NCBI RefSeq assembly: GCF_001182745.1 | Contig: NZ_LN868938.1 | Location: forward strand, 1,240,001-1,304,000 | DNA length: 64,000 nucleotides | Direction: 5' to 3' | From: Nocardia farcinica | GTDB lineage: Bacteria; Actinomycetota; Actinomycetes; Mycobacteriales; Mycobacteriaceae | Shown here: piece by piece, positions 33,551 through 63,344 of the stretch | Position numbering within the stretch: the first letter of the stretch is position 1 | How the letters are laid out: every line of letters begins with the position of its first letter | The notes under the pieces: model-generated | Seen by the model: only the letters and a program-made list of their open reading frames with translations | Database searches by the model: none | Told to the model about the DNA's origin: nothing | Position numbers and translations under genes: made by a program

Positions 33551-33957
33551 CACTCGGTGACGGTCGGCGGGGCGGTGAGGAACGGGCGCACCTCGAGCCA
33601 CTCGTGGATCGGTGCGCCGCCCGCACCGGGCGCGGCCGACAGCTCGCCCGCGAGCTCGACGGCGCGGTCCTGGGAGTCCACGTCGATGATCATCCAGCCC
33701 GCGATCAGATCCTTGGTCTCGGCGAACGGGCCGTCGGTGACGGGTGGCTTACCCTCGCCGTCCGAGCGCACCCACATGCCCTCCGGAGCGAGGGCCTGCC
33801 CGTCGACGAATTCGCCGCTGGCCTCCAGCCGCGCCGCGAAGTCGTTCATGTACTGGACGTGCGCGTGGATCTCCTCGGGCGTCCACCGATCCATCGGCAC
33901 GTCGTTGACCGCCGCCGGAGCGCCGCGGTAGTGCTTGAGAAGCAGGTACTTGGCCAT
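33550..33957 (-). CDS. YCII/DGPF-domain protein paired with ECF42 sigma factor
   Basis: The 135-residue protein matches the YCII-related family with the characteristic DGPFAETKDLIAGWMIIDV segment near residue 75-95 and the N-terminal KYLLLKHYRG. The ATG has a clear SD (aagggagaa) 5-8 bases upstream. The stop overlaps the sigma factor start. The family is a dimeric ferredoxin-like alpha-beta barrel whose reaction is unknown. The gene is commonly a direct target of its neighbouring sigma factor. Confidence 0.88.
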   Translation of the reverse strand: MAKYLLLKHYRGAPAAVNDVPMDRWTPEEIHAHVQYMNDFAARLEASGEFVDGQALAPEGMWVRSDGEGKPPVTDGPFAETKDLIAGWMIIDVDSQDRAVELAGELSAAPGAGGAPIHEWLEVRPFLTAPPTVTE

Positions 33958-36153: not shown

Positions 36154-36167
36154 CCCCGGGTCAGCTC
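36147..36167. terminator. palindrome covering both convergent stop codons
   Basis: GAGCTGACCC (36147-36156) and GGGTCAGCTC (36158-36167) are complementary with one base between. The TSUP stop TGA (36151-36153) lies in the left arm and two bases of the nitroreductase stop lie in the right arm. It may act as a compact bidirectional terminator. Confidence 0.5.
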
Positions 36168-36822
36168 ACCACGAGTCGACATGCACGATCCGCGCCATGT
36201 CGACCCGGGCGGCGGGCTTGAAGTCGGTGCCCTTGGTGTAGGCGACGGGGATCAACGCCCCCTGCGACACCTTCTCGAAGGGGATGCCGAGCACCTCGGC
36301 CGCCTCCCGCTCGTACTTCAGATGCAGGGTGGTCCACGCCGTGCCGAGCCCACGGGCGCGGGCCGCCAGGCAGAAGCTCCACACCGCCGGGAACAACGAC
36401 CCCCAGTGCGAGGCGCTGGCCGCACCGGAGACGTTGTCGACGCGCCCCCACAGGCACGGCACCAGCAGCACCGGCACCTCCCCCATCTTCTCGGCCAGGT
36501 ACTCCGCCGAATCGGCGACCCGGCGACGCGTGGCATCCACCGCCGGATCGCCGGTGGCCTTGGTGCCCAGGTACTCCGGTGCGTCCCGGTATTCGGCGAA
36601 CCCGCGCCGGTACAGCTCCCCCAACCGCCTGCGCTTCTCGGCATCGGTGACCACCACCCAGTGCCAGCCCTGCCGGTTGGACCCCGACGGCGCCTGCACC
36701 GCGAGCTCGAGACATTCGCGCACGACCGCGAGCGGCACCTCGCGCTCCAGGTCCAGCCGCTTGCGCACGGTGCGGGTGGTCGACAACAGCTCGTCGGGGT
36801 TCAGGTCCAGCTCGATCGGCAT
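36166..36822 (-). CDS. nitroreductase family protein
   Basis: This 218-residue FMN-dependent enzyme has the typical start STTRTVRKRLDLEREVPLAVV with the FMN-binding RTVRKRLD, followed by APSGSNRQGWHWVVV near residue 50-65 and the late GLGTAWTTLHLKYE. The family reduces nitro groups, quinones or other compounds with NAD(P)H. It is 27 bases downstream of the IrtB-like gene's stop side and reads in the same direction as that pair's other neighbours; cotranscription is not clear. The substrate is unknown. Confidence 0.85.
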   Translation of the reverse strand: MPIELDLNPDELLSTTRTVRKRLDLEREVPLAVVRECLELAVQAPSGSNRQGWHWVVVTDAEKRRRLGELYRRGFAEYRDAPEYLGTKATGDPAVDATRRRVADSAEYLAEKMGEVPVLLVPCLWGRVDNVSGAASASHWGSLFPAVWSFCLAARARGLGTAWTTLHLKYEREAAEVLGIPFEKVSQGALIPVAYTKGTDFKPAARVDMARIVHVDSW

Positions 36823-36849
36823 GGTTCCGACCGTACGACAGGGCCGCGA

Positions 36850-40373: not shown

Positions 40374-40494
40374 GATGCCCGTACCCGGATACCCGGCGTG
40401 ACGCGCTCGGCGCCGTCGTCCCTGCCCATGCTCACTCCTCGCCGCTCGATGGCGGTACCGCTGTGTCCGATACCGCGCCCAGGTGAAACCGCCA

Positions 40495-40519
40495 GTTTCG
40501 ATACCTGACGTATCGAAAC
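40495..40519. promoter_or_regulatory. perfect TetR operator palindrome between ABC pair and TetR gene
   Basis: GTTTCGATAC (40495-40504) - CTGAC - GTATCGAAAC (40510-40519) is a perfect 10-bp inverted repeat with a 5-base spacer, in the 177-base divergent gap. It fits an operator of the TetR-family protein encoded next to it. Confidence 0.75.
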
Positions 40520-40550
40520 CAAGAGTAGCGTAATGCACTAGGGTGTGGGC

Positions 40551-41138
40551 ATGACGCGAGTGAGCAGCGAATCCGCTCGGCCACCGGGGCGGCCACGGTC
40601 CGGTCTGCACTCCGTGGTCTTCGCCGCCACCTTGCAGACGGTGCACGAGCTGGGTTATGCGCGCGCGACGGTCGATCGCATCGCGGCCGCGGCGGGCGTG
40701 GCGAAGACGACCGTCTACCGCCGCTGGCCGTCCAAGGGCGCGCTGATCATCGATTGCCTGCTCGACGCCTTCGGCCCGGTACCACTGGAGGGCGCGGACC
40801 GGGCCGAGATCATGACGGGTGCGATCCGTTGGATCGCGGGGAAGATCGCCGAGCCCGGCGTGGGCGACGCCTTCGCGGGTGTCTTCAGCGACGCGGTCAG
40901 CGATCCGGAGCTGCGCACCCTGTTGTCGACCCGCTTCCAGGATCCGTATCGGATCGCCGTTCAGGACGCGCTCGGCGAGTCCGAGCAACGGGTGCTGTTC
41001 TACATCGACGTCGTCGTCGGCACCCTGCTGCACCGGATGGGGATGACCGGTGCGCCGATGGTCGAGTCCGATGTCGAGGCATTGATCGAGATGACGCTGC
41101 GGTACTTCGGCACCGGCGACGAGGGTAACGGGCGCTAG
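40551..41138 (+). CDS. TetR-family regulator of the ABC pair
   Basis: This 195-residue regulator has the HTH VHELGYARATVDRIAAAAGVAKTTVYRRWPSKGALI near residues 30-65 and a helical C-terminal domain. A TAGGGT -10 element at 40539-40544 would put the transcript start exactly at the ATG of 40551, so the message is probably leaderless. It is divergent from the IrtAB-like genes, with the palindrome between. The end overlaps the stop of the opposite-strand F420-type gene by 4 bases. Repression relieved by a transported compound is the likely mode. Confidence 0.9.
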   Translation: MTRVSSESARPPGRPRSGLHSVVFAATLQTVHELGYARATVDRIAAAAGVAKTTVYRRWPSKGALIIDCLLDAFGPVPLEGADRAEIMTGAIRWIAGKIAEPGVGDAFAGVFSDAVSDPELRTLLSTRFQDPYRIAVQDALGESEQRVLFYIDVVVGTLLHRMGMTGAPMVESDVEALIEMTLRYFGTGDEGNGR

Positions 41139-41626
41139 GCCGACTCGCGGACGGGCGCCCGCCGCACCTGGAGGCACCGGTCCACGCGGAACAGCCGCAG
41201 CGTCAGGCGGGTTCCGGGCGAGAGGTGGGCGGCCACGGCGGCGGTCGGCACGAGCGCGGGCTGATCGACCGGCACGGTGGCACCGTCGGTGACCACCGTG
41301 GCCGAGCCCGCAGCGAGCACGTTGCGCAGCCAGTCGGCGCGGGTGCCGTAGGGCAGGGCGACGACATAGCCGGTGTCGGTGGGGATCACGTCGACGGGAG
41401 TGTCGTAGGTCCGGCCGGAGCGGCGGCCGACGTGCCGGATCAGCGCGCGGGGCGAGCCGGCCGTGCCGGCGTCCCGCAGGACGCGCCGGTTGGTGACCTT
41501 CTTGTTGAAGCGGCGCACGGTGTCGACGATCGGCGCGATCCGGTACCGCAGGCCGATCAGCAGGGTCGCCAACGCGAGCAGCGGAATCGCCACGATCAGC
41601 ACGGCGAGAACAATCAGCACTTTCAT
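41135..41626 (-). CDS. deazaflavin (F420)-dependent nitroreductase-type protein
   Basis: This 163-residue protein has an N-terminal membrane helix (VLIVLAVLIVAIPLLALATLLIGL) and a split-barrel domain with the pattern RALIRHVGRRSGRTYDTPVDVI, typical of the DDN-like F420-binding family, then PYGTRADWLRNVLAAG. Such proteins reduce or oxidise substrates with cofactor F420, which supports a mycobacterial or nocardial host. The ATG at 41626 faces the divergent TetR gene at 41742; the tandem operators between them suggest shared control. The substrate is unknown. Confidence 0.85.
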   Translation of the reverse strand: MKVLIVLAVLIVAIPLLALATLLIGLRYRIAPIVDTVRRFNKKVTNRRVLRDAGTAGSPRALIRHVGRRSGRTYDTPVDVIPTDTGYVVALPYGTRADWLRNVLAAGSATVVTDGATVPVDQPALVPTAAVAAHLSPGTRLTLRLFRVDRCLQVRRAPVRESA

Positions 41627-43506: not shown

Positions 43507-44556
43507 ATGACTGTTCGAGAAGCCGACCGCACCGGGTTCGCATTCCCCACTTCGGAGCTCGCCGTCGCCGCCGACGCGCTGGTCGCCGAGGTCTCGTCGC
43601 CGCTGGTCTACAACCACGTGGTCCGCGCCTACCTCTACGCCCGCGAGATGGCCGCGGCCACCGGCCTGCGGGCGGGTACCGACTACGACGACGAACTGCT
43701 CTATCTCGGCTGCATCCTGCACGATCTCGGCGCCACCGACTACGCCCAGGGCGACCAGCGGTTCGAGGTCGACGGGGCGGACGCGGCCGCGGAGTTCCTG
43801 CGCGCCAGGGACGTCGCCGAGGACCGGATCCAGGTGGTGTGGAACGCGATCGCGTTGCACTCCACCGACGGTATCGCCCACCGCTTCGGCACCGAAGTGG
43901 CGCTCACGCAGATGGGCACCGGCGCCGACATCATCGGCCGGGGCCGGGAACTGCTGCCCGCGGGCTTCGCCGAGCGTGTGCACGCCGCGTGGCCGCGCCT
44001 GGACGTCGGCTACGCCTTCGGCGAGGTGCTCGCCAGGCAGGTGCGCGACAACCCCGCCAAGGGCAGTCCGTTGACCTTCCCCGGCCAGCTCTGCCAGCTC
44101 TACTACCCCGATCAACCCGCGGTCACCTGGTTCGACGTGGTCGATGCGGCGGGCTGGCACGACCGGCCGGTGCCGATCGGGGACCGGCCGGTCGGCGCGG
44201 CGACGCCCGAGGAACTGGCGACGCTGTTCACCCGCTACTTCAACGCCGGTGATCTCGGCGGTCTGCTGTCGCTGTACGAGCCGGGCGCGGTGCTGTTCCC
44301 GATGCCCGGCGAGCGGCGCACCGGCCTCGACGCCATCCGCGAGTCCCTGCGCGGCATGCTCGATTCCGGCGCACGGATCGAGCTGACGGTGCGCGGCGTG
44401 CACGTCGCCGGTGAGCTGGCGCTCATCGCCAACGACTCGGTCCTCACCGGGGCCGGACCGGACGGCACGCTGGTGTCCACCACCACCGAGATCGCCCGGC
44501 GCGGCAGCGACGGCTCCTGGCGATACGTCCTCGACGACCCGTACTTCACCGCCTGA
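43507..44556 (+). CDS. HD-domain protein fused to a SnoaL-like domain
   Basis: This 349-residue protein joins an HD-type phosphohydrolase or lyase domain (about 30-225) to a C-terminal SnoaL/NTF2 domain (about 240-349). The HD signature is in [15 protein letters not shown] near residue 75, with an upstream His in VYNHVVRAY and a later His in [13 protein letters not shown]. The second domain starts [27 protein letters not shown] parts of this type resemble cyanamide hydratase-like proteins. Fusion with SnoaL is unusual. The ATG has a gaaggg SD inside an inverted repeat. Its end overlaps the NRPS end on the other strand by 11 bases. Confidence 0.82.
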
Positions 44557-47500
44557 GCGGCCCGGGTCCCGGCGCGAGCCGTTCGTCGAGCACCCGGGCG
44601 ATCCGGGCCAGCACGGACGGCTCGGTCATCGCCAGGTGCGCGGCGTCGACGTCGACATTGGTGATCTCACCGGCCACGACCGGCGCCCAGCCCCGGTGAC
44701 CGCGGGCATCCGGTCGTCGGTCCCGTAGCGCGGTGAAGTACAACAGGTCGCTGTCGAGCACCCCCGGCTCCCAGTCCCCCGCGGCGCGGATCGACCGGTT
44801 GTAGGTGTCGGTGAGCCGTTCGATGGCGGCGGCGTCGATGGCGAGGCCGTCGCCGAGCCTGCGGCGGATCAGGGCGGCCGCCTCCTCGGGGGTGGCGTCG
44901 GTGGGCACGAAGTCGATACCGATCACGGGGCCGAGGTTGGCGATCAGCTCGCCCGCGGTCACGGTCGTCACGGTCGAGGCGTCGATGCCGTCCACCTCCG
45001 CGTCGAGCATCGCCAACAGCGCGACGTCCTCACCGGCGGCACGTATTTCGGCGGCGACCGCGTGGGCGATGAGACCGCCGAGCGACCAGCCGAGCAGGTG
45101 GTACGGCCCGCGTGGCTGCACGCCGCGGATCTCGGCGACGTAGCGGCGCGCGGTCTCGACGATGGAGTCGGGGCCCGGCTCCTCGCCGCCGAGCTGTGGC
45201 GCCTGCAAGCCGTAGATCGGCCGGTCGCCGGTGAGGAATTCGGCCAGCGGCCGGTAGCACCAGGCCAGACCGGACGCGGGGTGGATGCAGAACAGCGGTG
45301 GCTGCTCGCCGCCGGTGCGGATCGGCAGCAGCACGTCGAAGAGCGCGGCGGCTGGTTCGGGGGCGGGCCGGCCCGAGCGCATCCCGGTTTCGATGCGCTT
45401 GGCGAGGTCGGCCGGGCGCGGATCGGACAGGAACCAGCTGACCGGTACCTCGTAGTGCAGATCCCGGGACAGCTCGCCGGCCACCTGCACCGAGCGCAGC
45501 GAATTGCCGCCCAGGGCGTAGAAGTCGTCGTCGGCGCCGACCCGCTCGACACCGAGCACGTGCTCGAAGACTTCCGCGACCTCGCGTTCCAGCCAGGTCG
45601 CCGGTTCCCGGTATGCGCCGTGCGCGACGTCGGGTTCCGGCAGGCGGTTGCGGTCCAGCTTGCCCGACGGGGTGAGCGGCACGCTGTCGAGCACGACCAC
45701 GGCACCGGGCACCATGTAGTCGGGCAGCTCCGCCGCGGCGTGCGCCAGCACGGCGTCGACATCGAGGGTCGCGCCGGGGGCGGGCACGAGGTAGCCGACC
45801 AGCCGGGCCGCCGCGCCGGTGGACCGCACCGCCGCCAGGGCGCGGGCGACGCCGGCATGCTCGGCGAGCACGGCCTCGACTTCGCCGAGTTCGATGCGCA
45901 ACCCGCGCAGTTTCACCTGGAAGTCGGTGCGGCCCAGATATTCCAGGTCACCGGTGCGGTTGCGGCGCACCAGATCACCGGTTCGGTACAGCCGCTCACC
46001 GTGCCCGTAGGGGTCGGGCACGAACCGCTCGGCGGTCAATCCGGGCCGGGCGTGGTATCCGCGCGCCACCTGGGCACCGGCGAGATACAGCTCCCCCACC
46101 ACGCCGGGCGGGACCGGCCGCAGCCGGGCGTCGAGCACGTAGGCGCGGGCGTTCCACACCGGCGTACCCATCGGGACGGCGCCGGTGTCGCCGGCACGGA
46201 CCGGGCGCGCGGTCGCGTGCACGGTGAACTCGGTCGGTCCGTAGAGGTTGTGCAGTTCCACCTCGGGCAGCACCCGTCGCACGGCGGCCACCACGTCCGC
46301 GCCGAACGCCTCACCGGCCACCAGCAGCGCCCGCAGCGAGCGCAGCGCCGATGCCGGTGCCGACTGCGCGAACGCCGCGAGCATCGACGGCACGAACGAG
46401 GTGATCGTCACGCCGTGCGCGGCGATGACCTCCGCGAGGTAGGCCGGGTCGGTGTGGCCGCCGGGGCGGGCGATCACCAGCCGCGCGCCCACCGCCAGAC
46501 TGCCGAACAGCTCCCACACCGACACGTCGAAGGTGGCGGGTGTCTTCTGCAACACCACATCGCCGGGGCCGAGCGCGTAGGCGTCGGTGAGCCAGCGCAC
46601 CTGGTTCACCACCGCGCGGTGCGGGATCGCCACCCCCTTCGGCCGGCCGGTGGATCCGGAGGTGAACAGGATGTAGGCCAGGTGGTCGGGCCGTAGCGGG
46701 GCGAGCCGCTCGGCGTCGGTGACCTCCGTGGCGTCCAGACCCGCCAGATCGAGGTCGTCGAGCGCGGTGAGCACCACCACGGGAGCGGCGGTGGCCAGCA
46801 TGTAGTCGATACGGTCGGCGGGCAGATCCGGATCGATCGGCACGTACGCTCCGCCCGCGGCGTGCACGGCGTACATGGCGGTCACCTGGTCCAGGGAGCG
46901 GCGCATCCGCAACCCCACCGCCGTCTCCGGGCCGATGCCGCGGGCGATCAGCCAGCGGGCCAGCCGGTTCACCCGCGCCGCGAACTCGGCGTAGGTCAGC
47001 GACCGGCCCTCGAACTCCACCGCGGGCTCGTCGGCGTGGGCGCGCACGGCGCGGCCGAACAGCGAGACCAGCGTGTCGCCGGCGGGCAGCGCGTGATCGG
47101 TGGCGTTCCACCCCACCAGCACGGCATCGCGTTCGGCGGCGGTCAGCAACTCCACCTCGTGCACGGGCCGGTCCGGATCGGTGACCAGCGCCGCGAGCAT
47201 CCGCTGCAAGCGGTCGACGAAACCGATCACCGTGGTGGCGTCGAACAGGTCGGTCGCGTAGGAGATTCCGCCGGTGATGCCCGCGGGCGTGCCGTCGGCG
47301 TCGTAGCTGTCGGAGACGGTGACGTGCAGGTCGAACAGCGACGTGCCGGTGTCGGCGTCGGCGACCGTGGCCGACAGGCCCGGCAAGGCGAAGTCGGTGG
47401 CACCCAGGTTCTGGAACGCCAGCATCACCTGGAACAGCGGGTGGTGCGCGTGCGAGCGGACGGGGTTGAGTTCCTGCACCAGGCGCTCGAACGGCACGTC

Positions 47501-50500
47501 GGCGTGGCCGAAGGCGGCGAGATCGGTGGCGCGGACGTGCGCGAGCAGCTCGGTGAAAGTCGTGCCCGGCCGCATCCGGGTGCGCAGGACCAGGGTGTTG
47601 ACGAACATGCCGACCAGATCGTCGAGCTGGGGTTCGCCGCGTCCGGCGTAGGGGGTGCCGACGGCGACGTCGTCGGTGCCCGCCAGCCTGCCGAGCGTGG
47701 CCGCGAGCGCCGCGTGGAACACCATGAACAGGGTCGTGTTGTGTTCGCGGGCCACATGTTCCAGGTCGGCGTGCAACTCGGCGCCGATCCGGATCGGCAC
47801 GCTCGCCCCGGCATAGGACTGCACGGGCGGGCGGGGGCGGTCGGTCGGCAGCTCCAGCCGCGGGGGCAGATCGGCCAGGTGGGTGGTCCAGTAGTCGATC
47901 TGCGCGTGCAGCAGTGACGCGGGATCCTCCTCCGCGCCGAGCACCGCGCGCTGCCAGATCGCGTAGTCGGCGTACTGCACCGGCAGCGGCGTCCAGGCCG
48001 GCGCCTGACCGAGCAACCGCGCCTCGTAGGCGAGCATCATGTCGCGGGCCAGCGGTGCCAGCGAGGCGCCGTCACCGCCGATGTGGTGCATGGCGGCGGC
48101 CAGCACCCACTCGTCCCCACCGAGGTCGAACAGGCGGACCCGGAAGGGCGGCTGGGTGGTCACATCGAACACGCTGGCCAGGAACGCCCGCACCGCCTCG
48201 GCCACGTCGTCCCGGTCGACCCGGACGACCTCGGGCGCCGCGGCCGCCTCCGCCACGGGCAGCACGACCTGCACCGGCTCGCCCGCCACCAGCGGGTAGA
48301 CGGTGCGCAGGATCTCGTGGCGGCCGACCACGTCGTCGAGCGCGGCGCGCAGGGCGTCGCGATCGAGACTGCCGGACAACCGGATCACGACGGGAATGCT
48401 GTAGGCGGCCGACTCGGGTTCGAAGCGGTTGAGGAACCACATGCGCTGCTGGGCGTACGACAGCGGCACACGCTCGGGCCGCGGCTGCGCGGTCAGCGCC
48501 ACCCGGCCGGTGTCGGCGTGCGATTCCGCCCGGGCGGCCAGAGTCGCGACGGTCGGCGCCTCGAAGATCAGCTGTACCGGCACACTCGCGTCGATCGCGG
48601 CACCCAGGCGCGCCGCGACCCGGGTCGCGACCAGGCTGTTGCCGCCGAGGGCGAAGAAGTCGTCGTCGGCGCCGACCGGTCCGGTCAGCCCCAGCGTCTC
48701 GGCGAACACCCCGGCCACGATCTCCTCGATCGGCGTGGACGGCGCCCGGAATCGCTTGGGCTGCAACACCGGAGCCGGCAACGCGCGGCGATCCAGTTTG
48801 CCGTTGGGCGAGAGCGGGATCCGGTCGAGGATCAGCACCGCGGCGGGCACCATGTAGGACGGCAGCACCGCGGTCAGGGCAGCGCGCAGATCGGCTTCGG
48901 CCAGCAGCGCCCCGGCCTCGGGCACCACGTACGAGACCAGCATGACGGGTCCGGCGCCGTCGCGGCGCGGGACGGTCACGGCGTACCGGACGTCGGGACG
49001 CGCGGTGAGCGCGGCGTCGATCTCACCCAGTTCGACCCGGAAGCCGCGCACCTTGACCTGGAAGTCGTTGCGTCCCATGAACTCCAACGCCCCGGCCCGG
49101 TTCCAGCGCACCAGGTCGCCGGTGCGGTACATGCGCTCGCCGGGCCCGGCGTACGGGCAGGCCACGAACCGGCCCGCGCTGGTGCCGGGGCGATCCAGGT
49201 AGCCGCGTGCCAGCCCCGGGCCCGCCAGGTACAGCTCGCCCGCCACCCCGACCGGCACCGGCTGCAGGCGGGCGTCGAGCACCAGTGTCCGCATCCCCGG
49301 CACCGGCGTGCCGATGCAGGACCGGGCGGTCGGCTGCCCGCGGTCGACCGCGGTCGCGACGATGGTGGCCTCGGTCGGGCCGTAGAGCACCCGGAACTCC
49401 CGGACGCCCGCGTCGTCGGTGCCGGTCCAGCGGCGCACCAGGTCCGCGGGCACCTCGTCGCCGCCGGACAGCACCACCCGCAGGTCGTCGAGACCGGCCG
49501 GGTCGACGGAGGCCAGTGCCGCCGGGGTCACGAAGGCGTGCGTCACCCGCTGCGCCCGCAGGAACTCGCCCAGTTCCGTACCCCCGTACAGCTCGGTGGG
49601 CGCGATCACCAGCGCCGCCGCGCCCCCGACCGCCAACAGGATCTCGAGCAGCGAGGCGTCGAAGGACGGGGAGGCGAAGTGCAGTACCCGCGAATCGGGG
49701 CCGACGCCGTATCCGCGCTGCCCGGCCAGGAAATCGGCGATGCCCGCGTGGGTGACCGCGACACCTTTCGGCACGCCGGTGGAGCCGGAGGTGAAGACGA
49801 CGTACGCGGTGTTCGCCGGCCGCAGCGGGCGCAGCCGTTCGGCGTCGCCGATCCGGCCGCCCGGCAGCGCCGCGAGCCGCGCGGCGGTGTCGTCGGCACG
49901 GGCGTCGGCATCGAGCACGACCCACTCGACGACAGCGGGCAACCGGTCGCGCACCGCGGCCACGGTCAGCCCCAGCGTCGCGCCGGAATCCGTCACCATC
50001 TGCTCGATCCTGCCCGCGGGATACCCGGGGTCGACCGGGACATAGGCCGCGCCGGTCTTCACCACGGCCCACCACGCCACCACCGACTCCACCGAGCGCG
50101 CCACCGCCACCAACACGGTGCGCTCGGGTCCGGCGCCGCGCCGGATCAGGTGGCGCGCCAGCCGATTCGACCGTTCGTCGAGTTCGGCGTAGGTCAGCCG
50201 CGTCTGCCCGGACACGACGGCGACACCCGCGCCGGCGCTGCGCGCCGCGGCGTCGAACACCTCCGGCAGCAGCACCGTCGGCGCGGGTGTTCCGCCGGTG
50301 CGCGCGAGCAGGTGCGAGCGCTCGTCCGCGTCCAGCCAGTCGATTTCCCCGACCGAGACCGACGGATCGTCGGCGACCGCTTCCAGCACTCGCACCAGCC
50401 GTCGTCCGAATCCCGCCACCGTTGCCGGGTCGAACAGCTCACGCGCATACATGAGCATTCCGGAAATGCCCTCTGCCACACCTCCTTTCCCATAGGAATC

Positions 50501-53500
50501 CGATACGACCCATTGCAGGTCGAACTGGGAGATCCCGGTGTCGGCCTCGGCCAGGGACACCTGCACATCCGGCAGGGTCACCTGCGTGTCGGCCAGGTTC
50601 TGCCAGGCCAGCATCACCTGGAACACCGGATGGTGCGGGGCCGAGCGGTCCGGGTTCAGATCCTCGACGACGCGTTCGAACGGCACGTCCGCGTGCTCGA
50701 AGGCGCGCAGATCCGTCTCGCGGGTGCGGGCGAGCAGGTCCGCGAACGGCTCACCGCCGTCGAGCGGCGTGCGCAGCGCCAGGGTGTTGACGAACATGCC
50801 GACCAGCTCGTCGAGGCCCGGTTCGCCGCGGCCCGCGACCGGGGTGCCGATCACGACGTCGTCGCTGCCGCTGGAGCGTCCGAGCACCACCGCCAGTGCC
50901 GCGTGCAGCACCATGAACAGCGAGGTGCCGTGCGATCGGGCCAGTTCCAGCAGGCGGGCGTGCAGGTCGGGGCCGATCTCGACCGGCATCCGCGCGCCCG
51001 ACAGCGACGCCACCGGCGGGCGGGGCCGGTCGGTGGGCAGCTCGAGACGGTCGGGCGCGCCCGCGAGGGTGGTGCGCCAGAACGCCAGTTGCGCCGACAT
51101 CAGCGACCCGGGATCCTCGGCCGTGCCGAGCACCGCGCGCTGCCACAGGGCGTAGTCGGCGTACTGCACCGGCAGCGGCGCCCAGGCCGGCGCCTGTCCG
51201 GCCGTCCGGGCGGCGTAGGCGGTCATGACGTCGCGGGCCAGCGGGCCCATCGACCGGCCGTCCCCCGCGATGTGGTGCACCACCAGCGCCAGCAGGAACT
51301 CTTCGGTCGTGCCCGCGAGTTCGAAGAGGCCGACCCGCAGCGGTACCCGCGTGGTCACGTCGAAGCCGCGGCGCACGAACTCGCCGATCGTGTCATCGAC
51401 GGCGGCCGGATCGACGCGCACCGATTCCAGGGCGATCTCCGGTTCGTCGAGGATCACCTGCCGCGGTTCCCCGTCGGTCTCGGGATAGACGGTGCGCAAC
51501 ACCTCGTGCCGAGCCATCACATCGCGCAAGGCGGCCGCCAGCGCGGCGGGATCCAATCGGCCCGACAGCCGCAGCAGCACCGGGACGTTGTAGGCCGCCG
51601 AGTCCGGCTCGAACCGGTTCAGGAACCACATCCGCTGTTGGGCCAGCGACAACGGCAGCCGCTCCGGGCGGGCCACCGCGGTCAGCGCGACCCGCTGCCC
51701 GCCGCCCAGCGACGCGGTATGCGCGGCCAGGGCGGCCACGGTCGGGAAGTCGAACACCGCCCGTACCGGCACGGTCGTGTTCATCGCCGCGCCGATGCGC
51801 GCCGCCACCGACGCGGCACTCAGGGAGTCACCGCCGAGGGCGAAGAAGTCGTCGTCGGCGCCCACCCGGTCGAGGCCGAGCACCTCCGCGAACGCGGCCG
51901 CGACCGCCGCTTCCGACCACGTCGACGGCGCCCGGTATTCCCGTGCGGCGAAGGCGGGTTCGGGCAGCGCGTCCCGGTCGAGCTTGCCGTTGGCCGTCAG
52001 CGGCACCTCGTCGAGCACCACGACCGCCGCCGGGACCATGTAGGCGGGGAGCTCGTCGGCCAGCGCCCCGCGCAGCTGCGTCCCGGAGACGGCGGCACCC
52101 GCCGCGGGCACCACGTACGACACCGGCACCACCGCTCCCCCGCCGATCCGGCGCGGGACCGTCACCGCGAACGCCACCGCGTCCTGCGCCGCCAGGGCCG
52201 CATCGATCTCGCCCAGCTCCACGCGGGTGCCGCGGATCTTCACCTGGAAATCGTTGCGCCCCACGAATTCGAGGGCGCCGTCCCGGTTGCGCCGGACCAG
52301 GTCGCCGGTGCGGTACATGCGGCCGCCGTCGAACGGGCAGGCCACGAATCGGGCCGCGGTCAGCCCGCGCCTGCCCGCGTAGCCGGCCGCGACCCCGGCG
52401 CCGAACAGGTACAGCTCACCCACGACACCGATCGGGGCAGGCCGCAGCCAGGTGTCGAGCACGACCGCCGCCACCGGTCCGACCGGGCCGCCGATCGTGA
52501 TCGGCGCGCCGGGGCGCAGGTCGCCTGCGGTGGCCCAGATGGTGGATTCGCTGGGACCGTAGAGATTGACCATCCTGCGGCCGGGCGCCCACCGCTCGAC
52601 CAGTTCCACCCCGACCGCCTCCCCGGCCGTCGCCAGCACCCGCAGTTCGTCGAGCCCGTCGGCCGGGACGGTCGCCAGCGCCGAGGGGGTCACCACCGCG
52701 TGCGTCACGTGCTCGCCGCGGATCAGATCGGCCAGTTGCGGCCCGCCGTACACCTGCGGCGGTGCGACGATCAGCCGTGCGCCCGCCCCGTGCGCCAGCA
52801 GCAGCTCGAAGACCGAGGCGTCGAAACTCGGCGCGGCGACCTGCAACACCGCCGCGTTCCGGTCCACGCCGAGCAGGCGATGTTGCGCGGCGACCAGATC
52901 CGCGAGTCCACGGTGCGTGACGAGCACGCCCTTCGGCGTCCCCGTGGAGCCGGAGGTGTAGATCAGGTACGCGACGTCGTCGAGATGCACCGGACCGCCG
53001 CGCTCGGCGTCGGTGACCCGCTCCGCGGGCACGGATTCGACGGCGCGGCGGGTGTTCTCGTCGTCGAGCACCAGCGTCGCGACCGCCGCGGGCACCGCGG
53101 CACCGGCGGCGCTGTCGGTGACGGCGAGCGCGGCGCCGGAATCGGACAGCAGGAACGCGATTCGCTCGGCGGGCAGGCTGGGGTCGATCGGCAGGAACGC
53201 CGCTCCGGCCTTGGCCGCCGCCCACACGGCGGTGACGGCGGCGAGCGAACGCGGCAGCGCGATCGCGACGACACGATCGTGTCCGGCCGTGTGCGCCAGC
53301 AGGAGCCGGGCCAGCCGGTCGGACCGCTCGTCGAGTTCCCGGTAGGTCAACGCCTTGTCGGCACAGCGCACGGCGATCGCGTCGGGCGCTGCCGCGGCGG
53401 AGGCGGCGAGGATGCCGGGCAGTGTGCGTGGTTCCGCGCCAGGGCCGCTGTTCTCCGGCCGCATCGGCCCGTCCTCGCCGCCCCCGACGGCCGCCGTGGC

Positions 53501-56500
53501 GGCCTGCGGGTCGGCCGCGATCCGGTGCAGCACCGCGGTGTAGCGGTCGAGGATCTGCCGCGCGGCGGCGGCGTCGAACTCGCCGACCCGGTAGCGCAGG
53601 GTGATCCGCAGCGCCGACGTGCCGTCCGCCGCGGGCCGGGTCGGGGCGACGACCAGGCTCAGCGGGTACGGGGTGGCGTCGACACCGGCGAGTTCCTCGA
53701 CTCGCAGCCCGGCCGAGTCGACCAGTTCCTGCAGGGCCGTCCGGTCGATCGGGAAGGACTGGAAGGCCAGCGCGGTGTCGAAGAGTTCCGGCAGTCCCGC
53801 GGCCCGGTGGATCTCGGGCAGGCCGATGTGGTGGTGGTCGAGCATGCGGGCCTGCTGGGCCTGGAGCTCGGCCAGCAGCCGCGCGATCGGCGCCGCCGGA
53901 TCCAGCTGCGCCCGTACGGGGATGGTGTTGAGGTACATGCCCAGCGCCCGGTCCACGTCCGGCAGCTCGGGCGGTCGGCCCGACACCGCGGTGCCGAACA
54001 GCACATCGGTCTCCCCGGCCTGGACGCGCAGGGTCATCGCCCAGGCCGCGGCGAGGGCGGTGTTGACGGTGACCGCGGTGTCGGCGGCGACGCGGCGCAG
54101 CGCGTCGACCTCGGTCGCGGTCAGCTCGGCCACTTCCTCGGCGGTCGCGGCGGCGGGCACGCCGCGCGACACCCGGGTCGGTGCGGTGACATCGGAGAGC
54201 TCGCGCGCCCAGGCGGTTTTCGCCGCGTCGGCGTCCTGCCGGCGCAGCCACGCCAGGTAGTCGCGATACGACGGGGCGGCACCGGCGGAGTCGATGTGTG
54301 CCGGTCGGCCGTAGAAGTCGAGTAGCTCGCGCAACAGCAACGGCATCGACCAGCCGTCGAGGACCACGTGGTGGTTGGTGACGAGCAACCGGAACCGGTC
54401 CGGGGCCAGGCGGATCAGGGTGAATCGGATCAGCGGCGGTACCGACAGGTCGAATCCCGCCGCCGCGTCGGCCGCCGCGATCTCGTCGGCGGCCCGCCGC
54501 GGCTCGCTCCGGTCCGTCAGGTCGAGGGTGCGGAACGGCACGTCGGCGCGCGCGAGGACGATCTGGCACGGCCCGTTCGCGGTCTCGGCGAAGGCCGCCC
54601 GCAGGATGTCGTGCCGAGCCACCACGGCCTGGGCGGCGGCGCGCAGGCGCTCGCCGTCGACCGTCCCGGCGAACCCGATCATCGTCTGCACCGTGTAGTC
54701 GTCGCGGTCGCCGCCCAGGCCGGCGTGGAAGTGGATGCCGGCCTGGATCGGCGACAACGGCCACACGTCGGCCAACGCCGGGTAGCGCTGCCGCAACCGG
54801 TCGAGGTCGGCCTCGGCGAGCCGTACGAGCGGCGCGCCCGCGTCCGGCGCCTCGGTCGCGCCCTCGGCGCGGGCCAGCGCGGCCAGCGCGGCGACGGTCT
54901 TTCCCTCGAACACGTCGCGTGGTGTGAATCGCAGCCCGGCGGACCGGGCCAGCGCCACCAGTCGCAGCGACACGATGCTGTCGCCGCCGAGGGTGAAGAA
55001 GTTGCTGTCGGCCGTGACGGTGTCGAGCTGGAGCACCTCGGCGAACAGCCGCGCCACGGTCTGTTCGGCCGGCGTGGCGGGCGGCCGGCCCGACTCCTGC
55101 CGGGCTCGGACCGGCCTGGCGCACAACGCTTTCCGATCGACCTTGCCGACCGGAGTGAGCGGCAGGTCGTCGAGTACCACGATCGCGGCGGGGATCATGT
55201 AGTGCGCGAGCGCACGTTCCAGATCCGCGCGCAGCGCCGTCACGTCCAGTTCGGCGCCGGCCGCCGGGACGACGTAGGACACCAGCACCGGTTCCCCGGC
55301 GGGACCGCGCTGATCCACGGTGGCGACCCGCGCGACGGCGGGTCGGCGGGCCAGGTGGGCGTCGATCTCGCCCGGCTCGATCCGCAGACCGTGGATCTTG
55401 ACCTGCTGGTCGTTGCGGCCCAGGTAGGCCAGTTCCAGGCCGTCGCGGCCGCGTACCCAGCGGACCGCGTCGCCGGTGCGGTAGAGCCGTTCGCCGGGCC
55501 GGTCCGGGTCGGCGACGAAACGTGTCGCGGTCAGGCCCGGCCGCTCGTGGTAGCCGCGGGCCAGGCCCGGCCCGCCGACGTAGAGTTCACCGGTGACGCC
55601 TACCGGCACGGGCCGCAGCCAGGCGTCGAGTACCCGCACCGACGTGCCGGGGATCGGCGCGCCGATGGTGACCTGGTCGCCGGGCCGCAGTTCGGTCGAG
55701 CCGGTCGCCCAGATCGTGGTCTCGGTGGGTCCGTAGTGGTTCAGCAGGCGACGACCCGCTCCCCAGCGCCGCACGAGGTCGGCGCCGGTCGCCTCGCCCA
55801 CGACCGCGACCGTGGCCAGCGAGGGCACCCGATCGGGTGCCATCGTGCCGAGTACGGACGGCGTGATGATCGCGTGGGTGATGTGCTCGCGGCCGATCAG
55901 GTCCTCGAGCTCCGACCCGCCGTAGACCTGCGGCGGTGCGATCGACAGGCACGCACCGCGGCTGTGCGCCAGCAGCAGCTCCGACACGCACGCGTCGAAA
56001 CCCGGTGACGCCACTTGCAGCACGACCGACGCGGTGTCCACCGCGAAGGCATCGGCCTGGGCCGCGACGAGATTCGCCAGGCCACGGTGGGAGACCTGCA
56101 CGGCCTTCGGCGTTCCGGTCGAACCGGAGGTGTAGATCACGTACGCGGTGGTGCCCGGCAACACCGGGCCCGCCGGGCTGGGGACGGTGGCGACGGTTTC
56201 CTCGTCGGCGCGCAGCCACTCGACCGTTGTCGGAAGCTGGTGTGCGACAGCGTCGATGGTCACGCCGAGGGCGCAGTGCGCGTCCGCCAGCAGACCGGCG
56301 ATCCGCTCGGGCGGATTCGCCGGGTCGATGGGCACGAAGGCGGCGCCGGTCATCGCCACCGCCCAGATCGCCACGGGTAGTTCCGCCGATCGCGGCGCCA
56401 CCACGGCGACGAACGATTCGGGGCGAGCGCCCCGGGCGATGAGCCTGCGTGCGAGGTCGGCCGCCCGCTCGGCCAACGCCCGATAGGTGAGCGAGGTGGT

Positions 56501-59500
56501 CCCCGCGCGCACGGCGGTGGCATCGGGATGCGCTGCGGCGGTGGCGGTCAGGATGTCGCGCAGGGTGCGCGCCGGCAGTTGCTCGTCGGAGCGTGAAACA
56601 TCTTCGGGCACACCTGGTTCCGCGGTGATCGCGGCGACACGGCGCTCCGGGTCGGTGACGATCTGGGCGAGGATGCGCTCGAACCGCGCGAGCAACGTAC
56701 GCGCCTGCTCCCCGTCGAACCGATCGGTGGCGTACCGCAGGATCACGGTGTGGGTTCCGGTCTCGCCCGGCGCCGCCTGCCCGTCCCGCGCGGGACGCGG
56801 CGGTGTCACCTGCAGGCTCAGCGGATACGGGGTGGCGTCGTGTGCGTCGACGTCGACCAGGCGCAGACCCGCGTCGTCGAGGTCGCGGGCCAGCTCGTCC
56901 CGGCCCAGCGGGTAGGACTCGAGCACGGTCACCGTGTCGAACAGGTCGGCCACACCGGTGGCGCGCTGCAACTCCGCCAGACCGATGTGCCGGTGGTCGA
57001 GCATGGCCGCCTGTTCGGATTGCACGCGCACCAGCAGCTCGGCCACCCGCTCGTGCGGATCGAGCCGCACCCGCACCGGCACCGTGTTGATGAACAGTCC
57101 GATCATCCGCTCGACACCGGCCACCTGCGGCGGGCGGTGCGACACCGTGTTGCCGAACACCACGTCCGAGCGCCCGGTCAGGACGGTGAGCAGCAGAGCC
57201 CACGCGACCTGTACCGAGGTGTTCGCGGTGACGCCGTGCGAGCGGCCCAGATCCAGGATCGCCGCGGACGTGGCGGCGGACAGCTCCACGCCGACCTCGC
57301 CGCTGTCGGCGGTCACCGTGCGCTCACCACCGGTGACACGGGTGGGACTCTCGATCCCGGCCAGCATCCGCTGCCAGGCGGCGATCGCGGCGTCGTCGTC
57401 CTGCGCGTGCAGCCACTGCAGGTAGTCGCGGTAGGAGTGCGCGGGCGGGAGGTCCGCGCCGGTCTCGTCGGCGTAGCGCGCCAGCAGTTCGTGGATCAGC
57501 AGCGGCATCGACCAGCCGTCGAGCACGATGTGGTGGTTGGTGACGATCAGGCGGAACTCGGCGGCCCCGGTGCGCACCAGGTGGAACCGGACCAGGGGCG
57601 GGCGGGCCGGATCGAACGGGGCGGCCTCGGCGGCGGCGTGTATACGCAGACCCTCGTCCGGATCGGCCGAATCCGTCAGGTCGCTGGTGCGCCAGGCTGT
57701 TTCGGCCTCGCCGAGCACGATCTGCCGCGGCCCGTCCGCGCTCTCCACGAACGCGGTGCGCAGGCTGTCGTGCCGGTCGACGAGTGCCTGGGCGGCGCTG
57801 CGCATCCGGTCCGCCAGCACCGGGCCCGCGAGGGTGAGGGTGGCCTGCACGGTGTAGCCGTCCTGACCGTCGGTGTCGTAGACGGCATGGAACAGCAACC
57901 CGGCCTGGAGCGCGGTCAACGGCCACACGTCGGTCATCGCCGGATACTCGCGCCGCCACCGGTCGAGGTCGTCCTGCGTCACCGGGACCAGCGGGAAGTC
58001 CGACGGGGTGAATCCGCCCGCGTCGGCGGACCGCGCGTGCGCGGCCAGTCCGCGCAGCGCCGCCTCCCACAACCCGGCCAGCTCCGCGACCTCGGCCCGG
58101 TCGAGCACCTCGGCGGCGTAGTCCCAGGTGACCTCGAGTTCGTACCCGTCGGGCCCGTGCTCGGCGATCGCGTTCACATCGAGCACGGCAGGCAGCGCCA
58201 TCCGGGGGTCGACCGTGGCGGTGAGGGCGGTGAATTCGGTGGTGGGCGTCCACGGCCCGGTGTGTTCGCCCGCGCCGACCCGGCCCAGGTAGTTGAAACT
58301 GATCTGCGGCTCCGGCGCACCACCCAGCACCGCGGCGCCGAGCGAGTCCAGGTGGCGCAGCATCCCGTAGCCGATGCCGTTGTCCGGCACCGCCCGCAGC
58401 TGTTCCTTGACCCGCCGCACGGCCAGACCGGCGGCGTCCCCGCCGGCGAACGCGTCGTCCAGATCGAGGTCGCCCAGATCGAGTCGCAGCGGGAACCGGG
58501 TGGTGAACCATCCGACCGTGGCCGCCAGATCGGCGCCGGGCACCGCCTGTTCCTCGCGACCGTGCCCCTCCAGCGCGATCAGCTCCGCGCCGCCGGACCG
58601 GCCCCGCGCCCGCCGCCACGCGCGCAACGCCAGGCCAAGGGCGGCCAGCAGGGGGTCGTTCGCGCCGCCGTGGAACCTGGCGGGCACGGTGGTCAGCACG
58701 GTCTCGGTGACCTCGGCGGGCACCCGCAGGCGCACCTGCTCCGCCGCGGCCGCGACATCGCGGTCGGGGTCGAGCCTGCGCGCACCGAGCAGGTCGTCCC
58801 CGCACTCGAGCTCGTCGCTCCACAGCGCGAGTTCGCCCGCCCGCCGGCGGGGCGCCTGCTCGACCAGACCGTGCACCCACCGCCGCACCGAGGTGGTCGG
58901 CGCGTCGAACCGCGGGTCGCCGCCCTCGGCCACCTGCGCCCATGCCTGCGCGAGATCGCCGAGCAGGATCCGCCACGACACCGCGTCGACGGCGAGGTGA
59001 TGCACCACCAGCCACAGCAGATCCGCGCCCGCGTCGCCGCCGTCGAGCCACACGGCCTGCACGAGCACGCCGTCGTGGGGATTCAGCCGGTCGGCGGCGG
59101 CCTGCAGATGCCGGTCGACCTCGGCGGCGTCGCGCCGCGCCAACCGGACGCGGGTGAGCACCGCCGCGGCGTCGATCGTGCCGCGCTCGAGCACGTCGAC
59201 GAAACGGTCCGCCGAGCCGGCGGCGCGCAGCACCGCGCGCAGCATGTCGTGCCGGTCGAGCACGGCCTGGATCGCCCGAACCAGGTCGTCGCGGCGCAGG
59301 TCCGCGGGCAACTGGACCAGCGCCGCCTGGGCGAACCGGTCGTAGTGCCCGCGCGCGAGCATGGCGTGCATGATCGGCGACAGCGGCATCGATCCGATGC
59401 CGCCACCGGGAAGTTCGGGCAACCGCTCGGCGCCCGCGTCGGCGGCGATCAGCGCGAGCCCGGCGACGGTCTTGTGGTCGAACACGTCCTGGGTGGAGAA

Positions 59501-62500
59501 GTTCAGGCCCTTCGCCTTGGCCCGTGCCACCAGCCGGATCGACAGGATGCTGTCGCCACCCAGCGCGAAGAAGCTGTCGTCCGCGCCGACCTCGGGCACG
59601 CCGAGCACCTCCGAGAACAGCTCCGCCACGATCCGTTCCCGCGGCGTCTCCGGTCGACGCCCGACCGGCACGGCACCGAAGTCCGGTTCCGGCAGCGCCC
59701 GGCGGTCCACCTTGCCGAAGGCGTTGACCGGCAGGCTCTCCAGCGGCATCAGCACCGTCGGCACCATGTGCGGCGGCAGCGTCGCGCGGGCGAACCGCTG
59801 GAGTTCGGCGACATCGAGGCGGTAACCGCGCACCGGCACCACGTAGGAGGCCAGTACGGTCGTGCCCGCCTTGTTCGGCACCGGCACGGTCACCGACAGC
59901 TCGACGTGCTCGTGCCCGGTCAGTGCGGCGTCGATCTCGCCCGGCTCGATCCGGTACCCGCGGATCTTGACCTGGAAGTCGCTGCGGCCCAACAGTTCCA
60001 GCTCGGGCTCGGCGCTGTCGGTGCGCCACCGCGCGAGATCACCGGTGCGGTACATCCGCTCCCCCGGCGCGCCGTACGGGTCGGCGACGAATCGGGCCGC
60101 GGTCTCGCCGACCCGGTGTCGGTAGCCGCGCGCCAGGCCCGGCCCGGCCAGATACAGCTCCCCCGGCGTGCCCGGCGGCACCGGTTGCAGGGTCCGGTCG
60201 AGCACCATCGCCGCGACCCCGCGGATCGGTCCGCCCACGGTGCGGTCGTGGCCGGGCCGCAGGCGCGCGCACGCGGCGGTCACGGTCGCCTCGGTGGGCC
60301 CGTATTCGTTCAACAACGCCCACGGCCCGGTCCAGCGTTCCACGACGTTCGGCGGGCAGACGTCGCCCCCGACCACGACCGCGCACAGTTCCGTCAGCGG
60401 TTCGGGATCGACCGTGGCCAGCATGGCGGGGGTGAGGGTCAGGTGGGTGACGCGCGCCTGGGCGAGCAGCCGGGTGAGCCCTTCGCCGCCGATGATCTCC
60501 GGGGGCACCACGACCAGCGCGGCGCCGCTGGCGAAGCAGGTCAGGAACTGTTCCAGCGAGGCGTCGAAGCTGGGCGAGAGCGCATAGGACACCCGCGAAT
60601 CCGCGGCCATGCCGAAGGCGGCGACGCGGTCGGCGATCAGCCCGGCCAGCCCGGCATGGGTCACCTGCACACCCTTCGGCGTCCCGGTGGAGCCGGAGGT
60701 GTAGGTCAGATACGCCGTGTCGGCCGGACGCAGCGGGCGGGTCCGCTCGTCGTCGCCGACGGGCCCGTCGGCGGTGCCCGCGAGCGCCGCGCGGGTGGCC
60801 GGGTCGTCCAGCACCAGCGCGGCCACGCCGTCGGGCACCCGATCCCGGTGCTCGGCCACCGTGAGCACGGTCCGCGCGCCGCTGTCGGCGATCATGTGCT
60901 CGATGCGCGCGGCCGGATACGCCGGGTCGATCTGCACGATCGCCGCCCCGCATCGCGCGACCGCCCACGCCGCGAGGACCGATTCCACCGACCGGCGCAG
61001 CACGATCCCCACGGCCGTCTCCGGCCCGCACCCGAGTGCGACGAGCCGCCGGGCCAATCGGGCGGACTCGCGGTCGAGCTCGCCGTAGGTCACCGTCGCG
61101 TCGGGGGTGATGATCGCGGTGGCGGCGGGGTCGCGGCGCGCGGCCTCGCCCAGGATGTCGGGTAGCAGCCGCGGCGGCGCGGGGTTCGGTCCGCGCACGG
61201 GCAGCAGCGCCGCCCGCTCCGCCGGTTCCAGCAGCGGCAGCGCCGCCACCGGGCAGTCGGCGCCGCGGGCGAGGAAGGCGTGCAGGAAGCGCAGGAACCG
61301 CCGGTGATGCCCGGCCAGTTCGGCGCGGGTGTAGATGTTCGGGTTGCCCTGGAAATCGATGTGGGTGCTCTCGCGGCCCGCGCCCGGGTAGATGTTGACG
61401 AACAGGTCGGCGGTCGGCCCCGAGGTGAGCACATGCAGCCGCCCGGTCGTCTCCCCGAAGACGACCTCGTTCTCGATCATCATCAGGTTCACCGCCGGAC
61501 CGAAGGACGCGGCCTCGTCACGGGCGATGCCCATGTCGGCGAAGATGTCCTCCTGGCGGTAGCGCTGGCGGCGCAGCGCACTGGTCAGCTCGCCCTGGGT
61601 GGCCTCGATCAACTCACCGACCGCGCGTCCGGCGACCCGCACCCGCAACGGCACCACGTTGGCGACCATGCCACCGGACCGCCGCAGCACCGCCGAGTGC
61701 CTGCCCGAGACCGGCAGGCTCAGCAGCACCTCGTCGCTGCCGGTCATCCGTGCCAGATACGCCGCGAAGGCCGCGACCGCGATGGGCGTGACGCTCGTGC
61801 CGCGCGCCGCGATCACCTCGTCCAGCAGGCGCGCGGTGTCGTCGGGCAGCGGGGCGCTGATCAGCGTCGGATGGATGGTGGGCTTGCCGACCCGGCCGGC
61901 CAGGCTCACCACCGGGGGCGCCCCGGCCAGGTGTTCGGTCCAGTACTTGCGGTCGTTGTCGAAGCGGGTGGAATCCCGGTAGGCCAGGTCCTGTTCTACG
62001 ATGTCGGCGAGATTCTGGGCGGCGGGCAACGGGGCGTCCTCGCCGCGGACCCACGCGTTGTACAGCTCGGTGATCCGGCGCAACATCGTGACCGCCGCGA
62101 ACCCGTCCAGCGCGATGTGGTGAGCACGCTGATACCACAGGTAGTGCTGCGGACCCACCTGGTACACATAGCTTTTCATCAACCGGTCGGTGAGCAGGTC
62201 GAGCGGGGCCGAATAGTCCTCCACCATCAACCGGTGCGCGGTCGCCACCGGGTCGGTGTGCCCGCGCAGATCCACCACCGACACCGGCGCGTCGAGGCTG
62301 AGGTCGACGAACTGGCACGGCTCCCCGTCCACCTCGATCAGACGCACGTGCCCCGACCCGAACTCGCGGCTGGCGGTCCGGCACGCCTCCACCAGCAGAT
62401 CCGCCCGCAGCTCCCCGACGATCTCCACGTACTGCGCCACGGAGATCGGCGACCCGCCCGCCAGGTGCTGAGCGAACCAGATGCCCCGCTGGGCGGCGGT

Positions 62501-62656
62501 CAGCCGGAGGACCTCGGGGGGCGAGCTCGCCGCGCTCGCGGAGTCGGCTCGGGAATCGCCGCCGGACACCAGGTGCCGGGTCGCGTCGGGCGAGTGGCGG
62601 CGCGGATCACCCGACCACTCGGGGGTGCTGTCGAGGTTGCGCTTGGACTGGGTCAC
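44546..62656 (-). CDS. five-module nonribosomal peptide synthetase (C-A-T-E, 3x C-A-T, C-A-T-TE)
   Basis: One gene encodes 6036 residues. Approximate centres are: C1 HHIALDG 178, A1 A3-motif 650, T1 Ser 1036 (GGDSI), E HHLAVDA about 1218; C2 HHIVLDG 1708, A2 2173, T2 Ser 2560; C3 HHVVLDG 2761, A3 3231, T3 3610; C4 HHIAGDG 3793, A4 4288, T4 4675; C5 HHIGGDG 4856, A5 5331, T5 5719; TE GWSLGG 5857 with late His about 6008. Specificity codes read by eye (position 517 Lys): DAETVGEVTK, DASIAVHIWK, DAFVAALIWK, DALFLGLIVK, DVWSLALVHK. The first suggests a basic residue and the last a Ser- or Thr-like residue; others are open. The first C domain resembles EntF-like starter condensation domains, so an acyl or aryl start unit is possible. 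GTG at 62656 has ggagg 4 bases upstream. No MbtH-like gene or tailoring gene is in view. Confidence 0.93.
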
Positions 62657-63344
62657 CGGACCTCCATTGATCCGTTGTTGCCGTCCGGCGGGCAGCGTCG
62701 GGTGCGCAGGGCTGTGCGCACCATTCGCGACGCATCGAAATGGTGTCTGTGCCCTCGGACGAGGAATTGCTCGTGACGGCACCGAAAAGCACGCCGACAC
62801 GGGCGCAAGGAACCGTGGCGAACACGACCGGGTGAAATTCCGCCGGACTGCCGACGAATCACATTGTTCGAATTATCGACCGGTGTTTGCCGACGTGACC
62901 GTTGCGAGAATTCGCGATTCGGTCATTTCTGGCGATCCTCGCGTTTTCGCGGTCGCCCGGGTGGACCGTGCCGGTGGGGTTCCCAGCCGGCCACGGCCGC
63001 GTGCACGCCGTGTTCGTATCGGCGTACGCGCTGGTCAGGGGTAATGCTCGCGCCGCGGCACGGTTCCGCGAGCAGAACGAAGGTAGTGGATTTCATCGGT
63101 GGCACCGACTCGCCTCGGGACAATGGCGTACCGCAGTACGCGTCCGTTCGGTCGCAAGTCCATCGACGGCGCTGTCGCGAACTTGTCCTGTTGGCTCTCC
63201 GCAACCCCGACTATTGGGAGATTCGTCTGTGTTGCCGACCTGCCTCTCAGGCTTCCGGGTCGACTGTCGCCGGAGCATTTCGGTGGCTCGGCGACGGGCG
63301 CGAAAAGCAATCATAATCGAGCCGCGACGAACCTCGCAACGAAA
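62657..63344 (-). other. 688-base gene-free region upstream of the NRPS gene
   Basis: This stretch is AT-richer than the rest and has only short, overlapping frames without coding signs. On the minus strand GATAAT at 62877-62872 may be a -10 element for the NRPS gene, giving a leader of about 200 bases; no clear -35 was found. A second AT-rich patch is near 63305-63345. The region could hold regulator sites or a small RNA, but no structure of known class was recognised. Confidence 0.4.

Follow-up and report, generated by a model that had tools for sequence, protein, structure and literature searches.

What does a five-module synthetase make when one of its modules carries the marks of an epimerisation (E) domain that is no longer there? 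The question is raised by a non-ribosomal peptide synthetase (NRPS) gene in a 64,000-nucleotide stretch of Nocardia farcinica contig NZ_LN868938.1, here called the window. The gene was found at 44546-62656 on the minus strand of a 6.46-Mb genome and encodes a single intact chain of 6036 residues. It is likely to encode a self-contained lipopentapeptide synthetase whose module 2 derives from an ancestor with condensation (C), adenylation (A), carrier (T) and E domains. The new finding is a conserved ghost E domain in module 2, seen in the sequences as an epimerase-type carrier and a post-epimerase C domain with no E domain between them. The gene is judged to be genuine and intact as well as old and conserved. 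Its kind is ordinary, and what sets it apart is that it stands alone and carries a conserved stereochemical mismatch.

Gene and domain architecture

An uninterrupted frame of 6084 codons extended over 44546..62800 on the minus strand. The GTG at 62656, residue 49 of this frame, was taken as the start and gives 6036 residues. It was aligned with Val or Met in all 18 other Nocardia orthologues compared, 13 of which had GGxV(T/S)Q at this place, and the portion of the frame ahead of it was unalignable among them. The protein search listed the window's own protein (P0002) at 6036 amino acids. Pfam searches over both protein halves detected six condensation-type, five AMP-binding, five carrier and one thioesterase (TE) domain. 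The domain order was Cs-A1-T1-E-C2-A2-T2-C3-A3-T3-C4-A4-T4-C5-A5-T5-TE, with Cs as the starter condensation domain. Ordered A, T and C domains with intact motifs and a type I TE at the end characterise the protein as a multimodular NRPS. The initial annotation had proposed a complete five-module assembly line with one E and one TE domain, a D-configured residue 1 and release by the TE. The assembly line was borne out by the Pfam domains and motifs, the predicted D residue is supported by the E domain of module 1, and release by the TE agrees with a terminal type I domain with conserved Ser, Asp and His. The features are:

44546..62656, minus strand: whole NRPS gene, 6036 amino acids, GTG start at 62656 (open frame, start alignment and protein listing)
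61241..62515, minus strand: starter condensation domain Cs, HHIALDG, acyl-gate residues A138/L143/A148 in RzmA numbering
59666..61168, minus strand: A1, code DAETVGEVTK, Glu 239 and Glu 322, putatively for a basic residue
59441..59653, minus strand: T1, GGDSI, epimerase-type carrier
58031..59413, minus strand: E domain, HHLAVDA, predicted to turn residue 1 to D
56621..57973, minus strand: C2, post-epimerase (DCL) clade
55076..56548, minus strand: A2, code DASIAVHIWK
54866..55075, minus strand: T2, GGDSI, epimerase-type carrier followed by C3 instead of E
54791..54865, minus strand: T2-C3 linker, the expected site of an E domain
53471..54793, minus strand: C3, post-epimerase (DCL) clade together with C2
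51941..53413, minus strand: A3, code DAFVAALIWK
51716..51928, minus strand: T3
50321..51673, minus strand: C4, LCL clade
48761..50263, minus strand: A4, code DALFLGLIVK, variable, putatively for an aliphatic-like residue
48536..48748, minus strand: T4
47141..48478, minus strand: C5, LCL clade
45626..47083, minus strand: A5, code DVWSLALVHK, with a family split between DVWS...HK and DMWA...(C/A)K
45386..45598, minus strand: T5
44549..45343, minus strand: type I thioesterase, GWSLG

A missing epimerisation domain in module 2

C domains were classified in a tree with 62 C-type members, of which EntF supplied one and the NRPS regions fetched from this genome the other 61. C3 shared a clade (support 1.0) with C2 and with every one of the five C domains found after an E domain, and its closest neighbours were C2 of the window and C2 of a trimodular sister NRPS of the same genome (support 0.955). 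The clade contained one further member, the first domain of its own protein. After its first C domain, the synthetase has two DCL-type (C2 and C3) and two LCL-type domains (C4 and C5). Among the carriers of the same NRPS regions, GDSI was present in five of the seven that precede an E domain, with one GNSI and one motif not found, and in a single one of the 39 that precede a C domain, namely T2 of the window. GGDSI in T2 was retained in all 92 full-length orthologues, the selection of which is described below. The distance from the T2 motif to the start motif of C3 was 69-92 residues in the orthologues, and an E domain needs about 450. By eye, the stretch ahead of C3 resembled that between E and C2. 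Because of the T2 motif, the placement of C3 in the post-epimerase clade and the insufficient spacing, the E domain of module 2 was probably lost before the family spread, with T2 and C3 keeping the old type. On its donor side, C3 still has the look of a domain made for D residues, and residue 2 would then be loaded as D, be achiral or be handled by a C3 of changed preference. The annotation of residue 1 as the only D residue is not safe, as T2 and C3 are of E-flanking kinds with no E domain between them.

The present handling of residue 2 may be explained in several ways. It is conceivable, at somewhat less than even confidence, that the family consists of single-gene lipopentapeptide synthetases from which the E domain was excised long ago, with the carrier and the D-selective C domain kept under selection and residue 2 made D or achiral through A2 or an outside epimerase. 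If true, a D or achiral residue 2 would amount to a stereochemical step judged incorrect by the usual reading rules. A point against a D residue 2 is that C3 was the fastest-changing domain of the protein. Its mean identity to the window was 64% among Nocardia and 58% among Gordonia orthologues, compared with 71% for C2, C4 and C5 in Nocardia; T3 came second at 65%. The same rate of change is in favour of a return of C3 to L-donor use after the loss of the E domain, which would leave GGDSI and the DCL type as fossils and residue 2 as an ordinary L residue. This is a tentative but serious candidate; a mere fossil, however, would not need the T2 motif to be unchanged in 92 of 92 proteins. C3 could also combine C and E functions and convert residue 2 to D itself, with no E domain needed, and T2 and C3 each look suited to a D residue. 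The motif of dual domains, HH(I/L)xxxxGD, was nevertheless missing in 25 of 25 sequences (the window and 24 orthologues) and in the whole set of 92, and C3 clustered with ordinary post-epimerase C domains of the same genome, which makes a dual function quite improbable. Dual C/E domains are known in Pseudomonas-type lipopeptide synthetases, as described in the text available of PMC8949500. A literature search for missing-epimerase precedents gave nothing usable. An ancestral loss of E from module 2 would offer a clean example from nature for studying how a DCL domain behaves once its E domain is gone. It also raises the question of whether carrier motif and C-domain class suffice to predict stereochemistry.

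Starter condensation domain and probable acyl cap

Cs was affiliated with the starter class by structure matches and by the C-domain tree. Among solved structures it scored 192 bits with RzmA, 187 bits with CDA, 176 bits with ObiF1 and 170 bits with EntF. The gate positions 138, 143 and 148 in RzmA numbering were transferred with the HHxxxDG motif and the structure-match alignment. They were occupied by Ala in 92, Leu in 91 and Ala in 92 of the 92 orthologues, compared with Tyr, Val and Phe in EntF. Cs has the small residues at 138 and 148 that define an open acyl pocket. In RzmA, smaller residues at 148, together with 138 and 143, shift the acceptance from C2 towards C8-C16 acyl groups, according to the text available of PMC7804268. 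Since RzmA and CDA outscored ObiF1 and EntF and the gate residues are small, the cap is probably acyl rather than aryl, and the comparison favours a medium to long chain from a coenzyme A (CoA) thioester. RzmA takes its acyl group straight from the CoA thioester, so a dedicated loading enzyme need not be nearby. The modest score gap between acyl and aryl references and the transfer of the gate positions by alignment weigh against this assignment. The initial annotation had suggested an acyl or aryl cap from an EntF-like first C domain; its starter type was confirmed, but EntF was outscored by RzmA and CDA, and the acyl cap became the likelier one.

An aryl-capped siderophore, for which an aryl carrier belonging to a different pathway, for example that of nocobactin, would hand salicylate or dihydroxybenzoate to an EntF-type Cs, is unlikely. 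EntF, the sole outside reference in the C-domain tree, fell within the starter clade (support 0.999), and the NCBIfam models MxcG (myxochelin) and EntF matched the protein, at scores far under the cut-offs (1054 bits against 2300 and 906 bits against 2400). Clusters of the nocobactin type that include a salicylate-activating enzyme are given for 92 of 101 Nocardia genomes, a genus-wide figure (PMC7413640, text available in part). The structure scores and the small gate residues in place of the Tyr, Val and Phe of EntF argue against the aryl cap. No iron-box-like site was present in the window at up to three mismatches to the consensus. An AMP-binding domain was found in none of the 30 neighbouring open reading frames (ORFs) scanned, 20 from the window and 10 of the 16 in the upstream piece L046, as the initial annotation had noted of loading enzymes; the rest of the genome was not searched for aryl partners.

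Adenylation codes and predicted residues

The codes of the window were DAETVGEVTK (A1), DASIAVHIWK (A2), DAFVAALIWK (A3), DALFLGLIVK (A4) and DVWSLALVHK (A5). The columns were checked with E. coli EntF, where they read DVWHFSLVDK, a Ser code. Among the 92 orthologues, A1 showed six kinds of code, with DAETVGEVTK in 70 proteins, A2 six kinds with DASIAVHIWK in 80, and A3 eleven kinds with DAFVAALIWK in 65. Twenty-six kinds were counted for A4. A5 comprised eleven kinds in two groups, one with Ser in the fourth and His in the ninth position (53 proteins) and one with Ala in the fourth and Cys or Ala in the ninth position (39 proteins). These two variants of module 5 predict a mass difference between the products of different species. 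All 92 orthologues had Glu at 239 and 322 of A1, and a basic residue is suggested for A1 because of these two residues and of known basic-residue codes. Residue 4 may be aliphatic-like, as judged from the A4 code.

The codes of modules 2-4 had been called unfamiliar. This was upheld by a literature text search with the codes of A1-A3, common orthologue codes of A4 and A5 and one fragment, which matched no paper and hence tied no product to them. The sequence and literature searches made turned up no near-identical cluster of known product. Comparison of the A domains with solved structures assigned no substrates, and two possible guides were discarded. The best-matching stretch for A3 was the second A domain of LgrA (272 bits; 250 bits for the first), presumably a Gly domain, with a different code as read by eye, and it was not used for A3. 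The chain 5u89, which we take to be DhbF, was the top single-A-domain chain for A1, A2 and A3 alike and was uninformative.

Conservation and integrity

The gene is not a one-off, and orthologues are kept in two genera. With an 827-residue Cs-A1 query, 38 of 98 Nocardia genomes, this one included, had a match of at least 73% identity, and the next best matches fell to 59%. At these loci the open frame had at least 6047 codons in 32 cases and was shorter in six. Matches of at least 67% among 301 sampled genomes of the wider family came solely from Nocardia and Gordonia. Eleven of 59 Gordonia genomes carried an orthologue, nine of them with a frame above 6000 codons and two with a shorter one; P0108 from Gordonia sp. 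ABSL1-1 is among the orthologues of this genus. A T5-TE query returned 25 loci, comprising 19 from Nocardia at 69-74% identity and six short matches at 34-49%.

The protein search found 801 proteins among the candidates scored, 836 in all, and 120 including P0002 were listed. A filter for the presence of start, middle and TE was passed by 92 of the 119 others (6012-6156 amino acids), so that this set was chosen for full length. The 27 dropped proteins were distant NRPSs and a few incomplete relatives, such as P0070 of Nocardia nova SH22a with 5829 amino acids and no TE domain in the precomputed domain list. In all 92 orthologues HHxxxDG was retained by each of the five C domains and HHxxxD by E, the TE had its catalytic Ser, Asp and His, and the carriers kept their Ser.

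It is very unlikely that the gene is a decayed or silent remnant that makes no product. Frames above 6000 codons, found at 32 of the 38 loci in Nocardia and 9 of the 11 in Gordonia, and the active-site motifs of the full-length orthologues argue against decay. Some points count on the other side. The intactness of the 92 orthologues is partly due to their selection, GGVSL was found in T3 of one of them, and one had four instead of five TSG(S/T)TG motifs. Besides P0070, the shorter frames at six Nocardia and two Gordonia loci would fit a remnant; some are in fragmented assemblies, an explanation that does not apply to the frames of about 1150 codons at G071:C1:5648416 and G385:C1:4218312, where the assemblies comprise one and two contigs. 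These two may be broken copies or sequencing errors.

Related synthetases

A sister NRPS of 4405 residues was present in the same genome (L047, 2298-15515, minus strand) with the order Cs-A-T-E-C-A-T-C-A-T-E-TE. Its codes were DIENVGGVTK, DAFVAALIWK and DAFVAALIWK, the last two identical to that of A3 in the window. This protein fits gene cluster family (GCF) 5 of Mannle et al. 2020, described in the available text as a trimodular NRPS with E domains in the first and last module, found in 75 of 101 Nocardia genomes and without a predicted product (PMC7413640). It may also correspond to a three-module NRPS that Komaki et al. 2014 describe as conserved (PMC4035055, seen in part). The window gene resembles the sister in the Cs-A-T-E-C-A start, with 57% identity over the Cs-A1 piece, in the code DAFVAALIWK, in an acidic residue at 239 of A1 and in being a single NRPS gene that ends in a TE. 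It differs in having five modules and one E domain, whereas the sister has three modules and a second E directly before the TE; it therefore lies outside GCF 5, which is defined by a trimodular build with E domains in the first and terminal modules. T2 of the sister reads GGNSL and its C3 is of the LCL type, so it has no ghost E domain. The five-module enzyme was not described in the available texts of PMC7413640, PMC4035055 and a 2025 survey (PMC12153302), the figures or supplements of which may list it as an unnamed family.

RzmA (rhizomide) and CdaPS1 have a first C domain of the same class as Cs. They belong to other bacteria, and the comparison covered this domain. Ala at gate position 148 of Cs is shared with HolA (A149, octanoyl) and with RzmA mutants for longer chains, as given in the available text of PMC7804268. 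The humimycin-type NRPS IupU of Rhodococcus is likened by description only, being actinobacterial with a C-starter and an assumed acyl cap (PMC5550956, seen in part). EntF has a related first C domain and its TE matched that of the window (94 bits), but it has one module, bulky gate residues and a Ser code. It uses an aryl donor in enterobactin synthesis. Two very large NRPS loci with many Ser/Thr codes were observed elsewhere in the genome (G000:C2:1378000-1418000 and 1459000-1503000). They resemble the Ser-rich families of Komaki et al. 2014, as far as these are described in the available text (PMC4035055).

Proposed assembly and release

In the proposed pathway, Cs would join an acyl chain, probably medium to long, from a thioester of CoA or an acyl carrier protein to residue 1, a putatively basic residue that would be epimerised to D. 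Modules 2-5 would add four residues. Module 2 would act without the E domain lost in the family ancestor, residue 3 would be of the kind that the trimodular sister uses twice, residue 4 aliphatic-like and residue 5 one of two kinds, depending on the species. The TE would free the chain by hydrolysis or cyclisation. A phosphopantetheinyl transferase and, if needed, an MbtH-like partner would be supplied from elsewhere in the genome. The best match of the TE was PDB 7crn ('Non-ribosomal peptide synthetase 4'), with 167 bits over TE residues 2-257. We take 7crn to be the TE of skyllamycin, which presumably epimerises and cyclises. Such a skyllamycin TE is covered by a review, in the available text of which the PDB code is not given (PMC11735501).

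Genomic neighbourhood

The flanks of the window, 14 Nocardia and six Gordonia loci were compared (21 upstream and 20 downstream flanks, some of them short pieces; one Nocardia locus contributed no downstream flank). No gene family present at four or more loci, the cut-off of this comparison, included the window or joined Nocardia with Gordonia. When Nocardia alone was compared down to families of two loci, the window shared one family, a piece of an ABC transporter, with one other locus. Downstream neighbours of the window had at most weak or partial matches in the ten examined of 19 named Nocardia loci. The conserved neighbours expected of a cluster with tailoring genes were not found in the compared flanks, and the NRPS is read as a lone gene rather than the cluster that had been annotated. 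The missing neighbours could also mean that tailoring genes are located elsewhere, which counts against this reading. The MbtH and phosphopantetheinyl transferase families were each detected at two places elsewhere in the genome. Together with the lack of conserved neighbours, this suggests that the NRPS uses general cell machinery or partners elsewhere. The survival of a lone NRPS gene in dozens of species amid changing surroundings suggests a product with a lasting role.

Two downstream ABC exporters, a nitroreductase and regulators were considered as a cluster with the NRPS and rejected, as only one ABC piece recurred, at one other locus, at 45% identity or above. The nitroreductase-like protein and two MsbA-type ABC exporters are located at 36166-41177 (minus strand). 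In an ORF of 872 amino acids in this region, no family matched the N-terminal stretch of about 290 residues, and the start of this ORF is perhaps over-long. Genes named catalase-peroxidase-like and Fur-like from reading of the sequence occurred close to the NRPS start in 8 and 7 of the 14 other Nocardia upstream flanks (examples L079-L084, L097 and L104) and neither at the window nor in Gordonia. This recurrence is limited to Nocardia without the window and is therefore read as shared ancestry of the location. A sigma-70-like factor with DUF6596, adjoining a YCII protein and a 575-amino-acid ORF without a Pfam match, was present at 30548-33957 (minus strand). Upstream of the window end, genes for a copper amine oxidase, a GMC oxidoreductase and an aldehyde dehydrogenase were consecutive (L046, 9065-14113, minus strand) and form an amine-degradation-like set unrelated to the NRPS.

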